Notes under the pieces: model-generated
Told to the model about the DNA's origin: nothing
Database searches by the model: none
Seen by the model: only the letters and a program-made list of their open reading frames with translations
Program-made: the position numbers and the translations under genes
NCBI RefSeq assembly: GCF_017084525.1
Contig: NZ_CP070950.1
Location: 3,224,001 to 3,288,000, forward strand
Length of the DNA: 64,000 bases
Source: Conexibacter sp. SYSU D00693
GTDB lineage: Bacteria; Actinomycetota; Thermoleophilia; Solirubrobacterales; Solirubrobacteraceae
Direction of reading: 5' to 3'
Shown: in pieces, positions 8,414 through 42,114 of the stretch
Position numbering within the stretch: position 1 is the stretch's first letter
How the letters are laid out: every line of letters starts with the position of its first letter

Positions 8414-8968
8414 CTAGATCGGCGCCGTCCGCGCCCCGATCGCGTAGCCGATGACGTTGATGAGCAGGTGCACGCCGCTCACCACCGCGAACGCCACCGC
8501 CAGGACCCACAGGGGCATGACGTAGACGGGGAGCAGCGCGACCCAGATCCCGAGCACGAGGTCGCCCTGGTCCAGCACGGTGAAGAACAGCCCGCGCGCG
8601 GAGCGCTGCTGAGTGCCGGGGGCGATGTCGAGCTGGCGCTTGGCGAACGAGTTCGGCAGCTCGCCGACGACGACGCCGAGGCCGACGAGCGTGCCGACGA
8701 GCGCGGGCCCGGCGTCCTGCAGGTCGTCCGGGAGCGCGTCCCACCACGCCGGCCACACCGCCTCGAGCAGCAGCGTCGCGCCGAGGCAGCCGAGGAGCAT
8801 GCACAGGGCGCCGCGCCAGGTCTTGTTGGCGCCGAAGAGGCGCCGGCCCCGCCAGGTCGCGCCCCCGTCGAGCGGTGCCTTCAGGGCCGTGAGGAGGTCG
8901 AAGCGCAGGACCGGGGCGTGGAGGATCGGCGCGCCGAGGACGACGAGCAGGACGAGGATGCCGTCCAC
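8414..8968 (-). CDS. CDP-archaeol synthase (CarS)-like integral membrane protein
   Basis: 184 residues with about five hydrophobic segments. Motifs match the CarS/DUF46 family: PLDGG, LFGANKTWRG near residue 35, then SFAKRQLDIAPG and LDQGDLVLG, resembling the KR-rich and DQxDF motifs of archaeal CarS. Archaeal CarS transfers CMP to an unsaturated archaetidic acid. In a bacterium the substrate is presumably another phosphatidic acid or a polyprenyl-type phosphate (inference). The GTG start lies 5 bases after the amidase stop, so it is probably in one operon with it. Confidence 0.65.
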   Translation of the reverse strand: MDGILVLLVVLGAPILHAPVLRFDLLTALKAPLDGGATWRGRRLFGANKTWRGALCMLLGCLGATLLLEAVWPAWWDALPDDLQDAGPALVGTLVGLGVVVGELPNSFAKRQLDIAPGTQQRSARGLFFTVLDQGDLVLGIWVALLPVYVMPLWVLAVAFAVVSGVHLLINVIGYAIGARTAPI

Positions 8969-8972
8969 GCGG

Positions 8973-10388
8973 CTACAGGGCGGGGCGGCGGTCGGCCCAG
9001 GGCTGGGCGGCCTCGAGCTGCGCCGCGAGCGCGAGGAGCGCGCCCTCCTGCGCCGGCTGGCCCGCGAGCTGGACGGCGAGGGGCAGGCCGTCGTGCTCGA
9101 ACAGCGGCACGGAGATCGCCGGCGAGCCGGTGACGTTGAAGATCGCCGTGTACGGGGTGAACCGCCCACCGCGGGCGAAGACGCCCATCGGGTCGGGGCC
9201 CTCGGGATCCAGGAGGCCGAGCTCGACCGGCGGCTCGGCGAGCGCCGGGGTGAGCAGGACGTCGAAGTCCGCCAGCCAGGTCAGGAACGCGCGCGCGAAG
9301 CCATGCAGCTGGTACTCGGCCCCCAGCGCGCTCGTCGCGTCGATCGACTTGCACAGCTGCCAGATCGCCCAGCTCATCGGCTCCATGTCCTCCTCGGCCG
9401 GCTCGCGGCCGGCGAGCATGGAGGCGAGGGCGATCTGGGTGCAGACCGCCGGGCCGAAGAGCGCCGTGAACTTGTGCAGGAGCCCGTCCTGGCGCCACGG
9501 CGGATCGGCCTCCACGACCTCGTGGCCCAGCGACTCGAGCAGCGCCGCGGCGTCGCGGACCGCCTGCTCCGAGGACGGGTGCACGGGCGTGTCGGGCAGC
9601 GGCGTGCGCGTCGAGACCGCGATGCGCAGCCGGCCGGGCTCGCGGGCCGCGGCGGTCGAGAAGGGCTCCGCCGGCGGCGGCGCCCACGCCATGTCGCCGA
9701 CCTCGTAGCCGGCGAGCAGGTCGAGGCAGAGCGCGGTCTCCGCGACGGTGCGCGTGAGCACGCCGTCCTGCACGAGGAACTGGTGGCCGACCTCCGGCGC
9801 CTGCGAGATCCGCCCGCGCTGGGGCTTGAGGCCCACGAGGCCGTTGCACGCCGCCGGGATGCGCGTCGAGCCGCCGCCGTCGTTGGCGTGGGCGAACGGG
9901 ACCATGCCCGCGGCCACCGCCGCGCCGGAGCCGCCGCTGGACCCGCCGGGGGTGCGCGAGAGGTCGTACGGGTTGTGGGTCTGGCCGAAGCGCCGCGTCT
10001 CCGTCGTCGGCGCGATGCCCCACTCGGGCAGCCGCGTGGTCCCGACGACGATGGCCCCCGCCTCCTTGAGCCGGCGCACGACGTTGTGGTCGTAGGGCGC
10101 CACGAAGTCGCCCATGAAGTCCGCGCAGAGGGTGAGCCGCTCGCCCGCCAGCGCGCGGTTGTTCTTGATCGCCACGGGGACGCCCGCCAGGGGGCGGGGG
10201 TCGCCCGGCTGGACCTCGTCGGCGGCGGCCAGCGCCTTGTCGCCGAGGACGTCGACGAACGCGCCGATCTGGCCGTCGACGGCCTCGATGCGATCCAGCG
10301 ACGCCTGCACGAGCTCGCGCGCGCGGACCTCCCCGCTGCGCACGAGCCGGGCGAGCTCGTCGACGGGCCGGGTGAGCAGCTCCTCCAC
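8973..10388 (-). CDS. Amidase signature-family hydrolase
   Basis: 471 residues. The Ser-cisSer-Lys machinery is visible: AIKNN (catalytic Lys), GGSSGGSGAA (cis-Ser) and GGGSTRIPA (nucleophile Ser). The usual start of the family aligns with GTG 10388. That codon has TAGGGT 7 nt upstream and no Shine-Dalgarno, so the long upstream in-frame extension is rejected. The substrate cannot be deduced. It lacks the extra features of GatA and no gatB/gatC is nearby, so a catabolic amidase is more likely than tRNA amidotransferase. Confidence 0.88.
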   Translation of the reverse strand: MEELLTRPVDELARLVRSGEVRARELVQASLDRIEAVDGQIGAFVDVLGDKALAAADEVQPGDPRPLAGVPVAIKNNRALAGERLTLCADFMGDFVAPYDHNVVRRLKEAGAIVVGTTRLPEWGIAPTTETRRFGQTHNPYDLSRTPGGSSGGSGAAVAAGMVPFAHANDGGGSTRIPAACNGLVGLKPQRGRISQAPEVGHQFLVQDGVLTRTVAETALCLDLLAGYEVGDMAWAPPPAEPFSTAAAREPGRLRIAVSTRTPLPDTPVHPSSEQAVRDAAALLESLGHEVVEADPPWRQDGLLHKFTALFGPAVCTQIALASMLAGREPAEEDMEPMSWAIWQLCKSIDATSALGAEYQLHGFARAFLTWLADFDVLLTPALAEPPVELGLLDPEGPDPMGVFARGGRFTPYTAIFNVTGSPAISVPLFEHDGLPLAVQLAGQPAQEGALLALAAQLEAAQPWADRRPAL

Positions 10389-10395
10389 AGCGGCG

Positions 10396-10401
10396 ACCCT
10401 A
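10396..10401 (-). promoter_or_regulatory. -10 box (TAGGGT) of the amidase gene
   Basis: TAGGGT on the minus strand, 7 nt before GTG 10388; leaderless arrangement. Confidence 0.5.
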
Positions 10402-10438
10402 CATCCGGCCAAGTGGGGTGCCTCGGTCCGGACCCGAA

Positions 10439-10444
10439 TAGAGT
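10439..10444 (+). promoter_or_regulatory. -10 box (TAGAGT) of the citrate synthase gene
   Basis: TAGAGT lies 38 nt before ATG 10483. Unlike most promoters here it leaves a short leader containing AGGAG at 10471-10475, 7 nt from the start. Confidence 0.45.
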
Positions 10445-10482
10445 CAGGGCGACCCCGCCCCGACTCACCCAGGAGCACGCAC

Positions 10483-11568
10483 ATGAGCGCCACCGCCGAG
10501 GTCCAGAGCGGCCTCGAGGGCGTCGTAGCCTTCGCCACGGAGATCGCCGAGCCCGACAAGGAGGGTGGCGCGCTGCGCTACCGCGGCGTCGACATCGAGG
10601 ACCTGGTCGGGAAGGTGCCCTACGAGAAGGTCTGGGGCCTCCTCGTGGACGGCAGCTTCGACCCGGGCCTGCCGCCCGCCGAGCCGCATCCGCTGACCGT
10701 CCGCTCCGGCGACCCGCGCGTCGACGTCCAGTCCGCGCTCGCCATGCTCGCCCCCGAGTGGGGCTTCGAGGCCCTCATCGACATCTCCGACGAGGCCGCC
10801 CGCGAGCAGCTCGCCCGCGCCTCCGTCATGGCCCTGAGCTTCGTCGCCCAGAGCGCCCGCGGCCTGGGCAAGCCGTGGGTGCCGCAGACCGAGGTCGACA
10901 AGGCCAGGACCATCGCGGAGCGCTTCCTCATCCGCTGGCGCGGCGAGGCCGACCCGGACCACGCCAAGGCCATCGACGCCTACTGGATCTCCGCCGCCGA
11001 GCACGGCATGAACGCCTCCACGTTCACGGCGCGCGTCGTGGCCTCCACCGGCGCCGACGTCGCTGCCGCGCTGTCGAGCGCGATCGGTGCGCTCAGCGGC
11101 CCGCTGCACGGCGGCGCGCCCTCGCGCGTGCTGAAGATGCTCGACGGCGTCGAGCAGACCGGCGACGCCGACAAGTGGGTCAAGGACGCCCTGGACCGCG
11201 GCGAGCGCCTCATGGGCTTCGGCCACCGCGTCTACCGCGCCGAGGACCCGCGGGCCCGCGTCCTGCGGCGCACCGCGCGCGAGATCGGCTCGAAGCGCTT
11301 CGAGGTCGCCGAGGCCCTCGAGCAGGCGGCGCTCGCCGAGCTCAAGGCCCGCAAGCCCGACCGCGTCCTCGCCACGAACGTCGAGTACTGGTCGGCCGTC
11401 GTGCTCGACACCGCCCAGGTGCCGGCCGACCTGTTCACCTCGATGTTCACCTGCGCGCGCGTCGCCGGCTGGAGCGCGCACATCCTCGAGCAGAAGCGCG
11501 AGGGCCGGCTCATCCGCCCGACGGCGAAGTACGTCGGGCCGGGTCCGCGCCCGATCGACGAGGTCTAG
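10483..11568 (+). CDS. citA: Citrate synthase, CitA (citrate synthase 2) type
   Basis: 361 residues. Condenses acetyl-CoA with oxaloacetate. Catalytic histidines are at about residues 209 (GPLHGGAPS) and 248 (MGFGHRVYR). The third catalytic position, usually Asp in NVDFYSG, is Glu here (TNVEYWSAVVLD). That change, and the start LEGVVAFATEIAEPDKEGGA, match my memory of mycobacterial CitA rather than the main GltA, so it is probably a family trait and not decay. The AGGAG site and ATG 10483 agree. Confidence 0.9.
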   Translation: MSATAEVQSGLEGVVAFATEIAEPDKEGGALRYRGVDIEDLVGKVPYEKVWGLLVDGSFDPGLPPAEPHPLTVRSGDPRVDVQSALAMLAPEWGFEALIDISDEAAREQLARASVMALSFVAQSARGLGKPWVPQTEVDKARTIAERFLIRWRGEADPDHAKAIDAYWISAAEHGMNASTFTARVVASTGADVAAALSSAIGALSGPLHGGAPSRVLKMLDGVEQTGDADKWVKDALDRGERLMGFGHRVYRAEDPRARVLRRTAREIGSKRFEVAEALEQAALAELKARKPDRVLATNVEYWSAVVLDTAQVPADLFTSMFTCARVAGWSAHILEQKREGRLIRPTAKYVGPGPRPIDEV

Positions 11569-11588
11569 CCGCCGCCCGTCCCGCCTGG

Positions 11589-11620
11589 CCGGCGCGCGCC
11601 CCGCAGCGGGCGCGCGCCGG
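11589..11620. terminator. Bidirectional GC-rich hairpin terminator
   Basis: 13-bp stem (11589-11601 with 11608-11620) and a 6-nt loop between the convergent citrate synthase and desaturase genes. An outer GTCCC/GGGAC pair extends it. Confidence 0.75.
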
Positions 11621-11632
11621 GGTGGGACGGCG

Positions 11633-12550
11633 CTAGTGCATCTCCCGCAGCCGCCGGTACTCCTCGACGGTGAGCGGGCGGCCACCCGCCGTGCTCAGCG
11701 ACGGGTCGTGCTCGAGGTAGCGGTCCTCCGCCTTGCGCCACACCGCGACGTAGCGGTGGAACGGGATGCGCGGGTGCAGGTGGTGGACCAGGTGGTAGTT
11801 CTGGTTGAGCAGCAGCGGGCTCAGCACCTTCTCGGCGCCGATCCGGTTGCGCGTCGCCTTGAACTTGTCCGTCGTCTGCGTGTGGTCCTCGAGGCCGTGG
11901 TGGGGCAGGTAGTCGAACGACCACGCCAGGAACGCCACCGCGAGGCGCATCGGCACGAGGTAGAGCACGACGAGCTCGAACGCGTTGCCGGTCGCGATGA
12001 GCGCCGCGGCCACCGCGCCGACGACCGCCCACGTCGCGAACAGCTCGAGGCGCTCGGCCTTCGGCCGCGAGCCCAGCTTGGGCAGGTAGAAGACCATGTA
12101 CCAGAGGTCGACGGTCAGCCACTTGAGCGGCAGCAGGGCCTTCGGGCCGCTGTGGGTCCAGTGGTCGGGGTCCCGGCCGTCGTCGTGGTTGGTGAAGCGG
12201 TGGTGCTGCATGTGGATGAAGCGCCACGTCCGGAAGCCGGCGTGGGCGGCGAACATCACCGTCGACAGGCGCCCGAGCCACGTCGTGACGTGCTCGTTGC
12301 TCGAGACGGAGTTGTGCGCGGCGTCGTGCGAGACCGTGAAGAGCACGAAGCACGCGACGGCGTTGAGCAGCATGCCGACCGGCCAGGGCAGCACGTCGCT
12401 GACCGTGAGCGCGGTCGAGGTCCAGAACAGGGCATGGCCGCCCAGGAAGAGCCCGAGCACCGGGAGCGCGATCGCGGGGATCGGCTCGGCGGGGTCGGGG
12501 ATGCGCCGGATCTGGTCGGCGGGGTGAGGTGCGAGGGTCTGGGTTGACAC
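11633..12550 (-). CDS. Membrane fatty acid desaturase
   Basis: 305 residues, diiron desaturase/hydroxylase superfamily. The three His boxes are clear: HDAAHN, HMQHHRFTNH and HLVHHLHPRIPFH. Hydrophobic helix pairs lie between boxes. The reaction would be O2-dependent lipid desaturation or hydroxylation with an electron donor. CrtW/CrtR-type carotenoid enzymes are a less likely alternative. The start is GTG 12550, with TACGCT 10 nt upstream. A 15-bp palindrome overlaps the start codon, implying repressor control. Divergent from the P450 pair. Confidence 0.85.
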   Translation of the reverse strand: MSTQTLAPHPADQIRRIPDPAEPIPAIALPVLGLFLGGHALFWTSTALTVSDVLPWPVGMLLNAVACFVLFTVSHDAAHNSVSSNEHVTTWLGRLSTVMFAAHAGFRTWRFIHMQHHRFTNHDDGRDPDHWTHSGPKALLPLKWLTVDLWYMVFYLPKLGSRPKAERLELFATWAVVGAVAAALIATGNAFELVVLYLVPMRLAVAFLAWSFDYLPHHGLEDHTQTTDKFKATRNRIGAEKVLSPLLLNQNYHLVHHLHPRIPFHRYVAVWRKAEDRYLEHDPSLSTAGGRPLTVEEYRRLREMH

Positions 12551-23785: not shown

Positions 23786-24522
23786 CGGGGGCCGAAGAGC
23801 GACGGGTCGTTCGTGATGACGCCCGTCACCCCGAGCGCCTCGAGCTCGGCGATGCGCGCGGCGTCGTCGACCGTCCAGACGTAGAGCTCGCCGCCGGCGT
23901 CGGCCACCGCCGCCGCCATGCGCGGCGTCACCACCGACCAGTGCGCCATCACCGCGTCGACGGCGCCCGCGCGGATCGCGGCGGCCACACGTCGCGGCAG
24001 GTGGCGGCGCAGGACGGCCACGCCGGCGACGGCCAGCGCCTTCGTCGCCGGGTGCGCGAGGTAGTCGCGGCGGACCTTGGGGACCGACCAGCCGAGGCGC
24101 AGCGCCGGGTCGAGCTCGCGGAGCCTGCGCAGCGACGCGAGCTCCATCGTCGAGACGAGCGCGCGGTCGGTGAGCCCGCGCTGGGCCAGCGCGTGGACGA
24201 CGCGGTCCTCGTAGCCCGGGAGCTTGAGGTCGACGTCGAGCTCGATGGCGCCCCACGTCTCCCGCGCCACGTGGTCCAGGCCCTCCTCGAGCGTCAGGAC
24301 CTCGCCGCGGCGGCGCTCGAGGTCGACGTAGTCGTGGGCCAGCAGCAGCCGGCCCGTGCCGTCGGTGCGCTCGGGCAGGACGTCGAACTCGACCATGTCG
24401 ACGTCGTGCTCGAGCGCGGCGTCGAAGCTCGCCAGCGTGTTGCCGGGGACGAGGTGGTCGGCGCCCTTGTGGCCGACGCGCCGCAGGGCACGCGGCAGCG
24501 CCCGCTCGTCCGCGCCGCTCAC
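23782..24522 (-). CDS. Glycerophosphodiester phosphodiesterase
   Basis: 246 residues, TIM-barrel GDPD family. It has the N-terminal GHKGADHLVPGNT (HKG in place of the common HRG), EFDV, LLAHDYVDL (His-Asp), and VWTVDD near the end, with the metal-binding Glu/Asp. Hydrolyses glycerophosphodiesters to glycerol-3-phosphate and an alcohol. No signal peptide, so probably cytoplasmic. The GTG start overlaps the Nei2 stop (GTGA). Its function near a DNA glycosylase looks accidental. Confidence 0.85.
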   Translation of the reverse strand: MSGADERALPRALRRVGHKGADHLVPGNTLASFDAALEHDVDMVEFDVLPERTDGTGRLLLAHDYVDLERRRGEVLTLEEGLDHVARETWGAIELDVDLKLPGYEDRVVHALAQRGLTDRALVSTMELASLRRLRELDPALRLGWSVPKVRRDYLAHPATKALAVAGVAVLRRHLPRRVAAAIRAGAVDAVMAHWSVVTPRMAAAVADAGGELYVWTVDDAARIAELEALGVTGVITNDPSLFGPR

Positions 24523-25295
24523 CGCTGGCACCCAGGACACCAGTAGACGGGCCGGTTGTCCTCCCAGAGCGTGCCGCCCTTGACCAGCGTCGCGCAGCGC
24601 GGACAGGGCTTGCCGGCGCGGCCGTAGACGGCCTTGGGGCGGCGCATGGGGCTGATGCGGGCGCACTCCTGCATCGCCGGGCGCACGGAGCGCACGAGCT
24701 CGAGCGCGTCGTCGTCGCCGACCTGCCCCGTCGGGCGGTGCGGGTCGATGCCGACCATGTGGCACGCCTCCGCGCGCCAGACCGTCCCCATGCCCGCGAC
24801 GGTGCGCTGGTCGAGCAGGGCGTCGCCGATCGGGCGCGTCGGGTCGTCCTCGCGCAGGCGGCGCAGGAAGACGCGCTCGTCGTAGTCCTCGCGGATCGGG
24901 TCCGGGCCGAGCGCGGCGAGGCGCTGGTCGAAGCGCGTGCGCGACTCGGTGAGGAGCTCGAGCACCGGGCCGTCGAACTGGACGACGCTGTGGCCGGCGC
25001 GCTCCATCACCAGCCACGCCCGCCGCGGCGCGCGCTTCCAGCGCTGACCGGGACGGTGCACACCCCACGACCCGGTCATCCGCAGGTGCGAGTGGATCGT
25101 GAGGTCGCCCTCGAAGCGCAGGAAGAGGTGCTTGCCGTGCGCGTCGACCGAGCGGATGGCGCGGCCCTTGAGCCGTTCGGGCCAGCGGTCGTGCGTGAAG
25201 CGCGGGTGGGGCGTGCGCAGGTCGTCGGGGACGAAGCCCTCGAGCACCGGCCGCATCCGGTTGCCCGCGTAGTGGATCGTGTCGCCCTCGGGCAC
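24519..25295 (-). CDS. nei2: DNA glycosylase/AP lyase, Nei2 (endonuclease VIII-like)
   Basis: 258 residues, Fpg/Nei family. Begins PEGDT, with the catalytic Pro and Glu, and GDT marks the Nei rather than Fpg branch. It has GKHLFLRF, HSHLRMTGSW, an H2TH region (DQRTVAGMGTVWRAEAC) and a C-terminal zinc finger (CPRCATLVKGGTLWEDNRPVYWCPGC). Removes oxidised pyrimidines. The start is GTG 25295, because PEGDT must follow the initiator. TACCCT lies 10 nt upstream. It heads a two-gene unit with GDPD. Confidence 0.93.
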   Translation of the reverse strand: MPEGDTIHYAGNRMRPVLEGFVPDDLRTPHPRFTHDRWPERLKGRAIRSVDAHGKHLFLRFEGDLTIHSHLRMTGSWGVHRPGQRWKRAPRRAWLVMERAGHSVVQFDGPVLELLTESRTRFDQRLAALGPDPIREDYDERVFLRRLREDDPTRPIGDALLDQRTVAGMGTVWRAEACHMVGIDPHRPTGQVGDDDALELVRSVRPAMQECARISPMRRPKAVYGRAGKPCPRCATLVKGGTLWEDNRPVYWCPGCQR

Positions 25296-25350: not shown

Positions 25351-25382
25351 GACGACGGCCCCGCCGAGGCGGGGCCGTCGTC
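25351..25382 (-). terminator. Terminator of the small-peptide operon
   Basis: 15-nt arms (25351-25365 and 25368-25382) are perfect complements (GACGACGGCCCCGCC and its complement). It begins 25 nt past the last peptide stop and separates the operon from nei2. Confidence 0.85.
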
Positions 25383-25406
25383 CGACGTCGTGGTGCTCGG
25401 CCTGCC

Positions 25407-25568
25407 CTACGGCAGGAGGCCGATGCTCAGGTCGATGACGCTGCCACCGGGACCGACCTGGACCTGCACGGTCTTGCCCGCGCCGTCCTCGGTGCCGATG
25501 ATGCCGCTCGCCTGCGTGAGCTTCGCGAGGTCACCCAGGTCGGTGACCGTCGGAGTCGTGTAGTCCAT
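25407..25568 (-). CDS. Lasso-leader-like RiPP precursor peptide B
   Basis: 53 residues. Leader MDYTTPTVTDLGDLAKLTQ has the lasso/RRE recognition pattern Y3-x2-P6-x-V8-x2-L11-G12, followed by L-T18-x before the predicted cleavage. If cleaved after Gln19, the core is 34 residues starting Ala20, with Glu27 and Asp28 at positions 8 and 9, the ring-closing positions of lasso peptides. Ala at core position 1 would be unusual. It shares GxxGxEDGxGKT and the C-terminal SIGxLP with its neighbour. AGGGGGA lies 5-6 nt before ATG. No cyclase or protease gene is nearby, so its processing is unproven. Confidence 0.65.
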   Translation of the reverse strand: MDYTTPTVTDLGDLAKLTQASGIIGTEDGAGKTVQVQVGPGGSVIDLSIGLLP

Positions 25569-25604
25569 GGAAGTCCCCCTGGTCGTCCGTGGTTCGTGTG
25601 CAGC

Positions 25605-25757
25605 CTACGGCAGGATGCCGATGCTGATGCCGATCAGCTCGTCGACGACCGCGGTGATGGTCTTGCCGCTGCCGTCCTCGAAGCCGAGCGAGCCGGCGCC
25701 CTGCGTCAGCTCCGCGAGCGTGCCGAGGTCCTTGACCTCAGGAGTCTCGTAGTCCAT
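25605..25757 (-). CDS. Lasso-leader-like RiPP precursor peptide A
   Basis: 50 residues. Leader MDYETPEVKDLGTLAELTQ is identical to peptide B at 14 of the first 20 positions. If cleaved after Gln19 the core starts at Gly20 and is 31 residues, with Glu27 and Asp28 at positions 8 and 9; Gly first plus acid at 8/9 is the class I-II lasso arrangement. The core ends SIGILP, similar to B's SIGLLP. Strong GGGGGAA before ATG 25757. It lies 26 nt after the small secreted protein and 36 nt before peptide B. Could be an unmodified leader-peptide-like protein; orphan in this window. Confidence 0.7.
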   Translation of the reverse strand: MDYETPEVKDLGTLAELTQGAGSLGFEDGSGKTITAVVDELIGISIGILP

Positions 25758-25783
25758 TCCAGTTCCCCCTTGTCCCCGTTGTC

Positions 25784-26065
25784 CTAGCTGAAGCAGATGC
25801 CGAGCAGCGCGTAGCGCACGCGGACGATCGGCGACAGGTTGATCGTCGTCTTGCAGGGCGGCGACGGCTGCGTCGTCCCCGCGTTGTTGCAGAGGTCGAT
25901 GCTCGCCTGGAGGAGCGGCGGCAGGTTCACCGGCACGGTGCTGCTCCCGCCGAGCAGGGCCTCGCACGTGTCGCCCAGGCCGGTCTGCGCCGACGCGGTG
26001 CCCGGTGCGGCCAGTGCCAGCGCGGCGATGCCGCCCGTGAGCACTGCAAGTCCTCTCTTGCGCAC
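25784..26065 (-). CDS. Small secreted four-cysteine protein, first gene of the peptide operon
   Basis: 93 residues, unknown family. Sec-type signal peptide MRKRGLAVLTGGIAALALAAPGTASA with cleavage before QTGLGD. The 67-residue mature part has four Cys (DTC, DLC, PPC, GIC), enough for two disulfides, and a polar Thr/Pro loop. The start is GTG 26065, decided by AAGGGGGA ahead of it. Same style of ribosome site as both downstream peptides. It could be a cognate binding, export or immunity factor for the peptides; only gene order supports this. Confidence 0.65.
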   Translation of the reverse strand: MRKRGLAVLTGGIAALALAAPGTASAQTGLGDTCEALLGGSSTVPVNLPPLLQASIDLCNNAGTTQPSPPCKTTINLSPIVRVRYALLGICFS

Positions 26066-26123
26066 TGCCCGTCCCCCTTGAGTCCTGAGCCTCCGTCCCG
26101 TTCGGAAGCTCGTTCGCGGCGGA

Positions 26124-26151
26124 ACCTTAGCTCAAGCGCCCCGGATTCCGG
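26124..26151 (-). promoter_or_regulatory. Putative promoter of the peptide operon with CCGGA-T-TCCGG palindrome
   Basis: Minus strand TAAGGT (26124-26129) as -10. A perfect 11-bp palindrome CCGGA-T-TCCGG (26141-26151) lies where a -35 would be. Reading GGAAT in the palindrome, an ECF-type -35 is also possible. Leader of about 50 nt to GTG 26065 with AAGGGGGA. Confidence 0.4.
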
Positions 26152-26245: not shown

Positions 26246-29200
26246 TCAGGCGGAGAGGGTGAGCTTCCGGGGTCCGGCACGGAACCCCAGCTCGACGAGC
26301 GGCGCCTCCCACGGCGACCCGACGACCTCCTCGCCGTCGACGCGCTCGAGCGCGAGGCGCCGGCGGCGGTCGGCGGTCACCCAGGTGGCGAGCGCCTCGA
26401 GCGCCGCGCGCACCCGCGGATCGTCCTCCTCGACGAGCACCTGCAGCGCCCGGCCGCCGCGCTCGACGTAGAGCACGGGCTCCGCGCCGGCGAGGACGAC
26501 GTGCGCGCCCGCGGCGCGCGCCGGGGTGCGACGCCCGGAGGCGCCCGCGCGCGGCTCGGGCCACTTCAGCGCGGCGCCGTAGGGCTGGGCGGGGTCCGTG
26601 GCGGCCAGGACGACGGGCGCCGCCTCCTCGGCCGCCGGGCCCGCGCCCGCGCGCAGCCGCTCGACCGCGCCGGGCAGCGCGAACTGCGCGCCGCCGAGGC
26701 CCTCGACGAAGTACCCGCGGCGACAGACGCCGAGCGTCTCGAGGTCGCTCAGCGCGTCGTAGAGGCCCGAGAAGCCGCCGGGCACCCCCTCGGCCAGCAC
26801 CTGCTCGCGGGTGACGATGCCGTAGCGCTCGAGCAGGAGCTCCGCCGTGGTGCGCCGCCGTGCCCGCGGGTCGGTCTCGCCGCCGGCGAACAGGCCGCCG
26901 GTGAGCGACCAGCGCCCCTGGACCTGCGGCTGGGCGCCGCCGCCGCGGCGGGCGCCGAAGCGGGTGCCGCCGGCGCGGCCGGCCCGGCGCTGGACGGCGG
27001 CGCGCTGCGCGCGGGCCAGCGTGAGCCGCGGCGCGCGCAGGGGCGCGAAGGCGTCGTTGGTGGCCTCCCCGGCCCAGACCAGGTCCCAGAGCGCGTCGCC
27101 CAGGGCCTCGGGGTCGTGGGGCAGCTCGGCCAGGAGGTCGGTGAAGAAGCACGGCGCGAGGCGCAGGCGCTCGCGGACGGCCTCGACGACCTCGCCGTCG
27201 GGCACCTCGCCCTTCGCCGGCGGCGGGCCGATCGCGGCCGCGTCGTCGCGCAGGTACAGCGCCACCCGGCCGCTGTTGCGCCCCAGGGCACCCGCGCCGA
27301 CCCAGACGACCTCGCCCGAGGCGCACAGCTGGTCCATCCACGTCTGGGAGTACGCGCCACAGCGGCGCGGCAGCACGTCGCGCTCCCAGGCGTCGGCGGG
27401 CAGGGCCAGCCCCTGCAGCGGCACGAGGACCTCGCGCAGGCGGTCGATCCCGGCACCGGCCGCCGGGTGGCGGTCCACGCCCTGCCAGCTGGGCAGGAAG
27501 GCCGCGAGCGCCCGCTGGTCGGTTGCCTCGACCTCCTTGCGCAGCGCCGCGAGCGACGCGCGGCGGATGCGCCGCAGCACGTCGGGGTCGCACCACTCGC
27601 GTTCGGTCCCGCCCGGGCGCAGCTCGCCCCGGACCAGCTCGCCGGCCGCCTCGAGCGCCTCGAGCGCCGGCAGGAGGTCCATCCCGTAGCGGTCGCGGAC
27701 CTCCCGCGTGGTGAAGGGCCCGTGCGTGCGGGCGTAGCGCGAGGCGATCTGGCGCAGCGGGTCGGCGACCTCCTCGAGGAACGCCTGCGGCAGGCCGCCC
27801 GGCGGCACGGCGCCGAACGCGTCGCGGTAGAGGCCGGCGTCGTCCGCCGCGATCCACCGCGGCTCCCCGCCGACGCGCAGGACGACGGCGCGCCGCTCGG
27901 CCTCGAGCTCGGCGAGCATCGGCTCGGGGTCGACGCCGGCCAGCGTGCGGTCGCGGACCTCGTCGAGCGACAGGTCGCCCAGCCGGCGCAGCACGTCGGC
28001 CAGGCCGTCGCGGTTGGCCGCGCGCAGCCGGTCGGAGCGATGCTGGAGGTCGGCCTCGACCTGCTCGAGCGCCGCGGCGTCGATGAGGTCGCGCAGCTCC
28101 TCCTGGCCCAGGAGCTCGCGCAGCAGCTCGCGGTCCAGCGAGAGGGCGGCCGCCCGCCGCTCGGCGTTCGGCGTGTCGCCCTCGTACATGTACGTGGCGA
28201 CGTAGTCGAAGAGCAGGGAGGAGGCGAACGGCGAGGCGGTCTTCGTCTCGACCTCCACGACGTCGACCTCGCGGCGGTGGACCTGCGTGAGGAGGTCCTG
28301 CAGGCCGGGGACGTCGAGGACGTCGCGCAGGCACTCGCGGTAGGTCTCGAGGACGATGGGGAAGTCGCCGTAGCGCTTGGCGACCTCGAGCAGCGACTGG
28401 GACTTGAGGCGCTGCTGCCACAGCGGCGTGCGCTTGCCGGGGTACGCGCGCGGGATGAGCAGCGACCGGCCGGCGTTCTCGCGGAAGCGCGCGCCGAAGA
28501 GGGCGCTGGCGCCCAGCTCCCCGACCACGAGGTCCTCGAGCTCGTCGGGCTCGAGCAGGACGAGGTCCGCCGTCGGCGGTTCGTCGGTGTCGGGGAGGTG
28601 GACGATGATGCCGTCGTCGGACCAGATCGCGTCGCTCTCGAGGCCGAGCTCGTCGCGCAGGCGCGCGCTGAGCGCCAGGCCCCACGCGGCGTGCACGCGG
28701 CCGCCGTACGGGCTCAGGACGCACAGCCGCCAGTCGCCGATCTCGTCGCGGAAGCGCTCGACGACGAGCGTCGTGTCCGACGGGACGACGCGCGTGGCCT
28801 CCTGCTGCTCGCGCAGGTACGCGAGGAGGTTGCGCGCGGCGAGCGGGTCGAGGTCGTAGCCGTCGCGCAGCGTCTCCTCGGACTGGTCGACCGCCCAGCG
28901 CGAGAACGCGCCGATCTCCTTGCCGAGCTCCTTGGGCCGCCCGACGCTGTCCCCGCGCCAGAACGGCACGGCGCCCGGCGCACCGGGCGCGGGCGTGACG
29001 ACGACGCGGTCCCGGCCGATCTCCTCGATCCGCCACGCCGACGCGCCCAGCAGGAAGGTCTGGCCGGCCCGCGCCTCGTAGACCATCTCCTCGTCGAGCT
29101 CGCCGACGCGCCGGCCGTCGGGCAGCACGACGGAGAACAGGCCGCGGTCGGGGATCGTCCCCGCGTTGGTGATGGCCAGCCGGCCCGCGCCCTTGCGCGC

Positions 29201-30697
29201 GCGGATCGACCCCGCGACGCGGTCCCAGACGATGCGCGGGCGCAGCTCGGCGAACTCCTGGGACGGGTAGCGCCCGTCGAGCATGTCCAGGACGTTCTCG
29301 AGCAGCTCGCGCGGCAGCTCGCTGTAGGAGTAGGTGCGGGTGACGAGCGCGAAGAGCTCGTCGACCGAGACGCCGGTGTCCTCGCCCGCCGCCGCGGCGA
29401 TCGCGACGACCTGCTGGGCCAGGACGTCGAGGGCGTTGCGCGGCACGACCGTCGGCTCGATGCGCGCCTCGCGCATGAGCTTCGTGACGACGGTGCACTC
29501 GAGCAGGTCGGCGCGGAACTTCGGGAAGATCCGCCCCTTGCTCGTGTCGCCCACGGCGTGGCCGGCGCGCCCGATGCGCTGCAGGCCGCGGGAGACGGAC
29601 TTCGGCGACTCGACCTGGAGGACCAGGTCGACGGCGCCCATGTCGATGCCGAGCTCCAGCGAGCTCGTGGCGACGAGGCACGGCAGCCGCCCCGCCTTGA
29701 GCTCCTCCTCGATGACCAGGCGCTCCTCGCGCGCCAGTGAGCCGTGGTGGGCCCGGGCGATCTCCTTGGGCTCCTGGCCCTCGGCCTCCGCCTCGGCGGC
29801 GGCCAGCTCGTTGAGGCGCAGCGCGAGGCGCTCGGCCCCGCGGCGGGCGTTGACGAAGACGATCGTCGAGCGGTGCTCGCGGACCAGCTCGAGGATCTTC
29901 GGGTACATCGCCGGCCAGATCGACTTGCGGGTCGCCTCCCCGCCGGCGAGGGGGTCCAGGGGATCCAGGTCGCCCGTCGACTGCTCGGGCTCGACCATCG
30001 ACTCCACGGGGACCTGGATCTGGACGTCGAGCGGCTTGCGCACGCCGGCGTCGACGATCCGGCACTGGCGGCGCGGGCCGACGAGGAACCGCCCGACCTC
30101 CTCCAGCGGGTTCTGCGTCGCCGACAGGCCGATGCGCTGATGCTCGCCCGCGAGGGCGGCGAGGCGCTCGAGCGTCAGGGCCATGTGCGCGCCGCGCTTC
30201 GTGCCGGCGACGGCGTGGATCTCGTCGACGATCACCGCCTCGACGTCGGTGAGCATCTCGCGCGCGCCGCTCGTGAGGATGAGGTACAGCGACTCCGGCG
30301 TCGTGATCAGGACGTCGGGCGGCTGGCGGCGCATCTGCGCGCGCTCCTTCTGCGGCGTGTCGCCCGTGCGCAGCGCGACGCGGACGTCGGCGCCGATGCC
30401 GGCGAGGGGCGCCCGCAGGTTGCGCTCGACGTCGTAGGAGAGCGCCTTGAGCGGCGACACGTAGACCAGCCGCGTGCGGCGCTCGGCCTCGACGCCGTCC
30501 CCGCCCGCCCCAGCGGCGATGCGGTCCAGCGCCCACAGGAACGCCGCCAGGGTCTTGCCGCTGCCGGTCGGCGCGGAGATCAGGACGTGGTCGCCCGACG
30601 CGATGGCCGGCCACGCCTGCTCCTGCACGGCGGTCGGGCCTTCGAAGGCACGCTCGAACCAGGCGCGGGTGGCTGGGGTGAAGGCCTCGAGGGACAC
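26246..30697 (-). CDS. lhr: Lhr, long-form ATP-dependent helicase
   Basis: 1483 residues, superfamily 2 DNA/RNA helicase with large C-terminal domain. Walker A APTGSGKTLAAF (about residues 45-56), DEIHAV (motif II), SATQNP (motif III), and motif V-VI region (ATSSLELGIDMG, LQRIGRAGH). Size of the full Lhr-Core plus CTD form found in actinobacteria. Mycobacterial Lhr unwinds RNA:DNA hybrids and is linked to repair. The start is GTG 30697, with TACCCT 9 nt upstream. It lies 88 nt downstream of the UdgB gene on the same strand but has its own promoter. A hairpin-rich 95-nt tail precedes the peptide operon. Confidence 0.95.
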   Translation of the reverse strand: MSLEAFTPATRAWFERAFEGPTAVQEQAWPAIASGDHVLISAPTGSGKTLAAFLWALDRIAAGAGGDGVEAERRTRLVYVSPLKALSYDVERNLRAPLAGIGADVRVALRTGDTPQKERAQMRRQPPDVLITTPESLYLILTSGAREMLTDVEAVIVDEIHAVAGTKRGAHMALTLERLAALAGEHQRIGLSATQNPLEEVGRFLVGPRRQCRIVDAGVRKPLDVQIQVPVESMVEPEQSTGDLDPLDPLAGGEATRKSIWPAMYPKILELVREHRSTIVFVNARRGAERLALRLNELAAAEAEAEGQEPKEIARAHHGSLAREERLVIEEELKAGRLPCLVATSSLELGIDMGAVDLVLQVESPKSVSRGLQRIGRAGHAVGDTSKGRIFPKFRADLLECTVVTKLMREARIEPTVVPRNALDVLAQQVVAIAAAAGEDTGVSVDELFALVTRTYSYSELPRELLENVLDMLDGRYPSQEFAELRPRIVWDRVAGSIRARKGAGRLAITNAGTIPDRGLFSVVLPDGRRVGELDEEMVYEARAGQTFLLGASAWRIEEIGRDRVVVTPAPGAPGAVPFWRGDSVGRPKELGKEIGAFSRWAVDQSEETLRDGYDLDPLAARNLLAYLREQQEATRVVPSDTTLVVERFRDEIGDWRLCVLSPYGGRVHAAWGLALSARLRDELGLESDAIWSDDGIIVHLPDTDEPPTADLVLLEPDELEDLVVGELGASALFGARFRENAGRSLLIPRAYPGKRTPLWQQRLKSQSLLEVAKRYGDFPIVLETYRECLRDVLDVPGLQDLLTQVHRREVDVVEVETKTASPFASSLLFDYVATYMYEGDTPNAERRAAALSLDRELLRELLGQEELRDLIDAAALEQVEADLQHRSDRLRAANRDGLADVLRRLGDLSLDEVRDRTLAGVDPEPMLAELEAERRAVVLRVGGEPRWIAADDAGLYRDAFGAVPPGGLPQAFLEEVADPLRQIASRYARTHGPFTTREVRDRYGMDLLPALEALEAAGELVRGELRPGGTEREWCDPDVLRRIRRASLAALRKEVEATDQRALAAFLPSWQGVDRHPAAGAGIDRLREVLVPLQGLALPADAWERDVLPRRCGAYSQTWMDQLCASGEVVWVGAGALGRNSGRVALYLRDDAAAIGPPPAKGEVPDGEVVEAVRERLRLAPCFFTDLLAELPHDPEALGDALWDLVWAGEATNDAFAPLRAPRLTLARAQRAAVQRRAGRAGGTRFGARRGGGAQPQVQGRWSLTGGLFAGGETDPRARRRTTAELLLERYGIVTREQVLAEGVPGGFSGLYDALSDLETLGVCRRGYFVEGLGGAQFALPGAVERLRAGAGPAAEEAAPVVLAATDPAQPYGAALKWPEPRAGASGRRTPARAAGAHVVLAGAEPVLYVERGGRALQVLVEEDDPRVRAALEALATWVTADRRRRLALERVDGEEVVGSPWEAPLVELGFRAGPRKLTLSA

Positions 30698-41469: not shown

Positions 41470-42114
41470 GTGACCCGGATCGTCATCGTCGACGACCACG
41501 AGGCCCTGCGCGAGGGCCTCGCCCACATCCTGCGCGGGGCGGGGGTGGAGGTCGTCGCCACGGCCGGCAACGCCGCCTCCGGGGTGGACCTCGTGGACGT
41601 CTTCCAGCCCGAGGTCGCGATCGTCGACATCCGCCTGCCCGACGGCAACGGCATCGAGCTGACGCGCGAGCTCCTCGAGCGCCGGCCGGAGCTCGGGGTG
41701 ATCCTCTACACGGGCGACGCGGACGCCGAGCTGCTCTACGACGGCCTGGACTCGGGCGCTCGCGGCTACGCGCTGAAGGCCGGCTCGACCGAGGAGCTGC
41801 TCTCGGCGATCGAGCGCGTCGCCTCCGGCGGCTCGTACGTCGACCCGCGCCTGGACCGCATCCTGCTGTCCCCGCGCGCGACGGCCCACGTGCCCCAGCT
41901 CTCGCCGCGCGAGCGCGAGATCATGAACCTCATGGCCGAGGGGCTGACCGCCGAGGCGATCGCCCAGCAGATCACCGTCTCGGTCGAGACCGTCCGCACC
42001 CACGTGCGCAACGTCATCCGCAAGCTGCAGGCCCGCAACCGCGTCCACGCCATCGCCATCGCCCTCGAGCGCGGCGAGATCGCCCTGGACCCCGACGGCA
42101 GCCTCGACGGGTGA
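41470..42114 (+). CDS. NarL/LuxR-type response regulator
   Basis: 214 residues. Receiver domain (IVDDHEALREG acidic pocket, IVDIRLPDG with phospho-Asp near residue 55, YTGDADAELLYDG, ALKAG Lys) followed by LuxR HTH (LSPREREIMNLMAEGLTAEAIAQQITVSVETVRTHVRNVIRKLQ). Start GTG 41470 with a TAGCGT box 9 nt upstream. Co-translated (GTGA) with the DHp-only protein, which is the obvious phosphate partner, but that partner lacks an ATP-binding domain. Confidence 0.92.
   Translation: MTRIVIVDDHEALREGLAHILRGAGVEVVATAGNAASGVDLVDVFQPEVAIVDIRLPDGNGIELTRELLERRPELGVILYTGDADAELLYDGLDSGARGYALKAGSTEELLSAIERVASGGSYVDPRLDRILLSPRATAHVPQLSPREREIMNLMAEGLTAEAIAQQITVSVETVRTHVRNVIRKLQARNRVHAIAIALERGEIALDPDGSLDG

Follow-up and report, generated by a model that had tools for sequence, protein, structure and literature searches.

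Lasso peptides are knotted bacterial natural products, and the genes for their production are usually, though not by definition, clustered. Among the described systems, those of paeninodin (Paenibacillus) and bsf (Bradymonas sediminis) combine split B1 and B2 proteins, a cyclase and an HprK-like kinase with a leader register of Tyr at -17, Pro at -14, one residue each at -12 and -2, and an acidic residue at core position 8 (PMC10368454, PMC8498205). In the case of BsfA, the register was established by experiment (Tyr-17, Pro-14, Leu-12, residue -2 and a ring to Asp8), and its core Ser3 is phosphorylated by the HprK-like kinase (PMC10368454); in paeninodin it is the C-terminal Ser that is phosphorylated by such a kinase (PMC8498205). 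Lasso RREs outside the paeninodins bind Tyr-x-x-Pro leaders, and most lasso RREs hold the leader Tyr by a hydrogen bond, the actinobacterial FusB1 being of relaxed specificity (PMC13381572). Unlinked genes are known for RiPPs: in the heterocycloanthracins (PMC4603692) and in lanthipeptides with hidden proteases (PMC8960859) a precursor or protease is encoded apart from the modifying enzymes. The putative system analyzed here has split B1 and B2 proteins, a lasso-cyclase-like protein, HprK-like kinases and the leader register of the paeninodin and bsf clusters, but differs from them in having two kinases, Thr at -2 and long cores, and in that the precursors, B2 and the remaining genes lie in three separate loci. 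It also differs from the heterocycloanthracins and lanthipeptides, both in chemistry and in that precursor, protease and cyclase are all encoded apart from each other.

The window, a stretch of 64,000 nucleotides, corresponds to positions 3,224,001-3,288,000 of a single contig of 4.43 Mb. On its minus strand, the gene of a small four-Cys protein is followed by those of two short peptides, A and B, and then by a hairpin, and this cassette is located between a gene of the Fpg/Nei family of DNA glycosylases and lhr (Table 1). This is the arrangement that a sequence-only reading had described, with Nei2 and Lhr as flanking genes; the domain matches agree with it, the former gene being Nei2-like (150.5 bits with the NF040775 Nei2 model, below its cut-off of 400 bits). 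The three genes, separated by gaps of 26 and 36 bases, all show positive coding scores and a near-identical Shine-Dalgarno sequence 5-6 bases upstream of the start. They apparently form one operon that starts with the four-Cys gene. The operon was also said to end in a strong terminator. There is indeed a hairpin with a stem of 14 bp and a loop of 4 bases, and a 97-nt stretch folds at -61.8 kcal/mol (z = -2.76); however, it lacks a U-run and was not called in our terminator scan.

Table 1. Features of the cassette and of the distant enzyme loci. Positions are those of the window, except where the contig (C1) is given.
Feature	Position	Strand	Description
Flanking Fpg/Nei family DNA glycosylase (Nei2-like), outside the system	24519..25295	-	PF06831, PF01149
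Hairpin 3' of peptide B	25351..25382	-	14 bp, GC-rich; possible terminator without U-run
Lasso precursor peptide B (putative)	25407..25568	-	53 aa; leader MDYTTPTVTDLGDLAKLTQ; predicted core ASGIIGTEDGAGKTVQVQVGPGGSVIDLSIGLLP
Peptide B Shine-Dalgarno	25574-25580		AGGGGGA
Lasso precursor peptide A (putative)	25605..25757	-	50 aa; leader MDYETPEVKDLGTLAELTQ; predicted core GAGSLGFEDGSGKTITAVVDELIGISIGILP
Peptide A Shine-Dalgarno	25764-25771		AAGGGGGA
Small putatively exported four-Cys protein	25784..26065	-	93 aa, GTG start
Four-Cys protein Shine-Dalgarno	26072-26079		AAGGGGGA
Flanking Lhr helicase, outside the system	26246..30697	-	DEAD_assoc, WH_Lhr domains
B2 transglutaminase-like protease	C1:80016-80474 (L021:10016-10474)		NF033537 58.3 bits (cut-off 33); PF13471 61.6 bits
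AsnB-like cyclase	C1:3948498-3950405	-	PF00733 (Asn_synthase) 123 bits; SGGLDSS motif
Free-standing RRE (B1)	C1:3951333-3951653	-	PF05402 60.2 bits (cut-off 23.4)

The first line of evidence concerns the peptides themselves. The sequence-only reading had assigned a lasso leader pattern to both and proposed a search with lasso leader models. Such a search with NCBIfam NF033521 (lasso_leader_L3, curated cut-off 19) gave 25.5 bits for peptide A and 22.8 bits for peptide B, and these are the only matches above the cut-off in the whole genome. Weaker matches (17.7 bits or less) were dismissed; they are located inside longer open frames, and the best of them lies in a gene that by eye is PspA-like. 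When the register is set by predicted cleavage one residue past the penultimate Thr, so that Thr18 becomes position -2, both peptides have Tyr at -17, Pro at -14, Val at -12 and Thr at -2, and their cores, starting with GAGSLGFED and ASGIIGTED, have Glu8 and Asp9, as had been noted before. Both thus conform to what we required of a lasso precursor, namely Thr (rarely Ile or Val) at -2 and Asp or Glu at core positions 7-9. The predicted ring would extend from Gly1 (peptide A, core of 31 aa) or Ala1 (peptide B, core of 34 aa) to Glu8 or Asp9. Pairwise comparison likewise agrees with the earlier observation that the peptides share 14 of their 20 N-terminal residues and a SIG[I/L]LP motif; overall they are 58% identical. 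The substitutions between them are spread evenly over the codon positions (16, 15 and 16), which alone is no proof of purifying selection.

It could be argued that the resemblance to a leader is fortuitous and that the peptides are unrelated small proteins, for instance partners of the four-Cys protein. The fact that the core is not conserved in the family outside this genome would fit this. However, two matches exceed a curated cut-off in exact register, and the strict register pattern combined with an acidic residue at core positions 7-9 was not found once in 1.92 Mb of order-1 Markov sequence. Furthermore, none of the 14 control genomes was matched in the family leader search at E<=0.01. 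Judged on the sequences, the leader match of the two peptides exceeds chance, and since a matching set of RRE, B2 and cyclase is present in the same genome, we regard a fortuitous resemblance as extremely improbable. Within the window the strict pattern has one additional match (41470-42114), which we attribute to chance; it sits in what by eye is a LuxR-type regulator. A search of the genome contigs with peptide A gave no relative, and this result was set aside.

The second line of evidence is the presence of a set of lasso-type enzymes on the same contig. The sequence-only reading had proposed to look for an RRE, a protease and a cyclase elsewhere in the genome, and stated that absence of all of these, together with detection of only full-length unmodified peptide, would speak against it; an RRE, a B2 protease and a lasso-cyclase-like protein are all present. 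The lasso parts of the genome lie in three loci, at 0.08, 3.25 and 3.95 Mb, instead of in one cluster. The locus at 3.947-3.953 Mb (L022) contains a minus-strand series of KinB, RRE, KinA and AsnB-like cyclase genes, which appear to form one operon, and a convergent pair of genes for an ABC ATPase and an ABC-2 permease. The RRE is the only PqqD-type RRE (PF05402) above the cut-off in the genome, and its closest solved structures are the lasso RREs TbiB1 (E 3.7e-9) and TfuB1 (E 2.4e-4). It is homologous to these actinobacterial proteins over its length; in contrast to theirs, its gene and that of its presumed substrate are about 0.7 Mb apart. By analogy, the binding of Tyr by lasso RREs agrees with the Tyr-type leaders of peptides A and B. 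KinA and KinB are HprK-like kinases by weak scores, below the curated cut-offs; the GGK[ST] and DD motifs are present, KinA lacking some of the Gly residues. The lasso-cyclase-like protein has its nearest relatives among the cyclases of lasso clusters and is the only close match of its kind in the genome; the next one, at 3.337 Mb, is 36% identical over about 270 residues. A search of the contigs with a cyclase alignment was set aside; among the matches listed were generic asparagine-synthase-like proteins. The only B2 protein (PF13471) above the cut-off in the genome, in which Cys90 and His130 are conserved, is encoded at 80 kb. Its gene begins 16 bases downstream of a gene for a polyamine aminopropyltransferase (L021:8428-9999) and lies in the same array, the speE array, which was not found in the other six members of the genus. 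A loose scan for leaders in 20 kb around each of the two enzyme loci revealed no leader-like peptide within about 10 kb of the enzymes.

Because this machinery exists elsewhere on the same contig, there is good support for the idea of an orphan RiPP cassette whose products are processed in trans. The other option offered by the sequence-only reading, a new family of peptides that merely borrows a lasso-like leader, becomes less likely, because the acidic residue occupies precisely core position 8/9 and no part of the machinery is missing.

The third line of evidence comes from a sample of 146 genomes of the family, 19 of which have a leader above the cut-off and 25 a B2 match. Seven other genomes (G094, G017, G007, G085, G088, G132 and G133) encode a related cyclase at E < 1e-40, and in all seven the cyclase, B2 and leader peptide genes are within about 5 kb, the leader being located just beyond the cyclase. 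In the six of them whose surroundings we read (all but G132), the ABC pair, an RRE and one or more kinases are part of the cluster as well. These compact clusters indicate that, within this sample, the dispersed layout is peculiar to the window genome. The clusters of G017 (C22), G007 (C326) and G094 (C238), for instance, resemble the present system in gene content: besides the ABC pair they encode a cyclase, an RRE, B2 and a leader peptide, along with one or two HprK-like kinases, and their cyclase, RRE and B2 proteins are about 38-56% identical to ours; in contrast, each is one cluster with a single precursor just past the cyclase, whereas our locus at 3.95 Mb is without precursor or B2, and two precursors are found elsewhere. 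With the pairs of the clustered relatives, our exporter pair shares about 42-52% identity. For each of B2, RRE, KinA and cyclase, the top ranks are taken by the same six distinct relatives (G132, a near-copy of G133, was left out of the ranking). That they also head the B2 list ties the B2 gene at 80 kb to the locus at 3.95 Mb. In two relatives Phe replaces Tyr in the leader peptide, one of which scores 18.3, just below the cut-off. The NF033521 cut-off is therefore not fully sensitive; our search of the window genome itself ran to E 10, at which a leader of 18.3-bit strength would have appeared.

Other arrangements were seen in the family. The intact G017 cluster includes a very short precursor of 37 aa with acidic residues at core positions 7 and 8 (L081:12637-12750) and two kinases. 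A genus relative has a different type of lasso cluster (L074, G006:C1:678001-698000, about 8857-11680), with an RRE-like protein, B2, an Asn-synthase-like protein and a leader peptide, all of weak similarity to the parts described here. Finally, three tandem short leader-like peptides that end in or near TLQTGIP(GG) are encoded at 10276-10771 of L079 (G126:C1:754001-774000), next to B2, RRE-like and HprK-like genes; their post-leader part is far below the usual length of a lasso core.

Conservation of the three-gene order in relatives had been suggested as a check. In four genus relatives the place upstream of nei2 that the cassette takes here is occupied by one to three other genes (by eye an FAD-linked oxidase, an FAD-dependent oxidoreductase and a glycerol-kinase-like gene), and neither a leader peptide nor a four-Cys protein is found beside nei2. 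The variable surroundings of the pathway parts are compatible with breakup and relocation of a cluster, or with separate gain. On the one hand, the pathway may have decayed, the cluster having broken up and its parts persisting although no lasso peptide is made any longer. The distribution over three loci, unlike in the seven relatives, the position of B2 in an unrelated gene array and the occurrence of this cluster type in just one other member of the genus (G007) would all fit such a history. On the other hand, every part is an intact open frame of coding-like composition; the ATP motif of the cyclase, Cys90 and His130 of B2 and the kinase motifs are retained; and the precursors form a duplicated pair in which the leader register and the ring acids are preserved, with a separate Shine-Dalgarno sequence for each gene. 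We therefore consider decay unlikely.

These data are best read as a lasso pathway with kinases, the cluster of which is divided among three loci, and it is likely that peptides A and B are the precursors of two related lasso peptides whose maturation occurs in trans, through enzymes from the two other sites. For processing, phosphorylation, lasso topology and every biochemical step, we infer the following route. The free-standing RRE would bind the Tyr-x-x-Pro-x-Val leader, and the precursor may be phosphorylated by either of the HprK-like kinases or by both, with the Ser in the SIG[I/L]LP tail as a candidate site. B2 would then cleave after Thr(-2)-Gln(-1), upon which the AsnB-like cyclase would activate Glu8 or Asp9 and join it to the new amine of Gly1 or Ala1, giving a macrolactam of 8 or 9 residues with a long threaded tail. 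The product would be moved out by the adjacent ABC-2 type exporter.

Several features count against a split lasso pathway. First, B2 could belong to the polyamine aminopropyltransferase array. Second, the RRE and the cyclase score below the cut-offs of narrow lasso-specific models (57.2 bits versus 70 on the NCBI lasso PqqD models, and 117 versus 525 on NF033535), as do those of the intact G017 cluster. Third, the group with the clustered relatives is supported at 98/96 in the RRE tree and weakly, at 28/78, in the cyclase tree, and it is unresolved in the B2 tree. Lastly, the leaders of A and B end in TQ and read DLG, whereas the clustered group has TA and DYG, and the two cores are long. It is also conceivable that the product is a linear or otherwise modified RiPP, with RRE and kinases acting on the leaders, and cyclase and B2 serving something else. 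Linear polyphosphorylated peptides, which share RRE and HprK kinase with the paeninodin-type lasso clusters, are known in Bacillota (PMC13381572); there are two kinases here, and the cyclase family has non-lasso members. However, the cyclase shares an apparent operon with the RRE and the kinases, there is no other candidate substrate, and in all eight precursors of the group the predicted cut one residue past the penultimate Thr puts Asp or Glu at core position 8 or 9. A linear or otherwise modified product of this kind thus seems very unlikely to us.

In the small putatively exported protein, the four Cys residues follow a signal-like N-terminus, assigned by eye. The protein has no Pfam or NCBIfam match above cut-off and no clear homologue in the family, the marginal matches (E > 0.002) in 5 of the 145 other genomes probably being due to chance, and its AlphaFold model (pLDDT 48) is uninformative. 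It may serve as an accessory or in immunity, or have nothing to do with the pathway. We see about even chances for the fuller scheme of a functional three-locus pathway, in which a small secreted four-Cys protein is expressed along with the two precursors as their partner, and a single set of enzymes acts on precursors encoded far away.

Taken singly, the precursors, the RRE, B2 and the cyclase are all of known kinds; it is the dispersed layout that is unusual, and in the limited, open-access literature that we consulted we came across no previous description of a lasso pathway spread over three sites. Mining of genomes by cluster seeks lasso precursor, protease and cyclase side by side, and a dispersed system would be missed or filed as incomplete. 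If the pathway is functional, lasso maturation can work with unlinked genes, a lineage with HprK-kinase lasso clusters would make two long-core products, and the system would be a natural test case for the extent to which recognition of the leader by the RRE is enough to define a pathway. If the three-locus pathway is true, production would depend on the co-regulation of unlinked loci.
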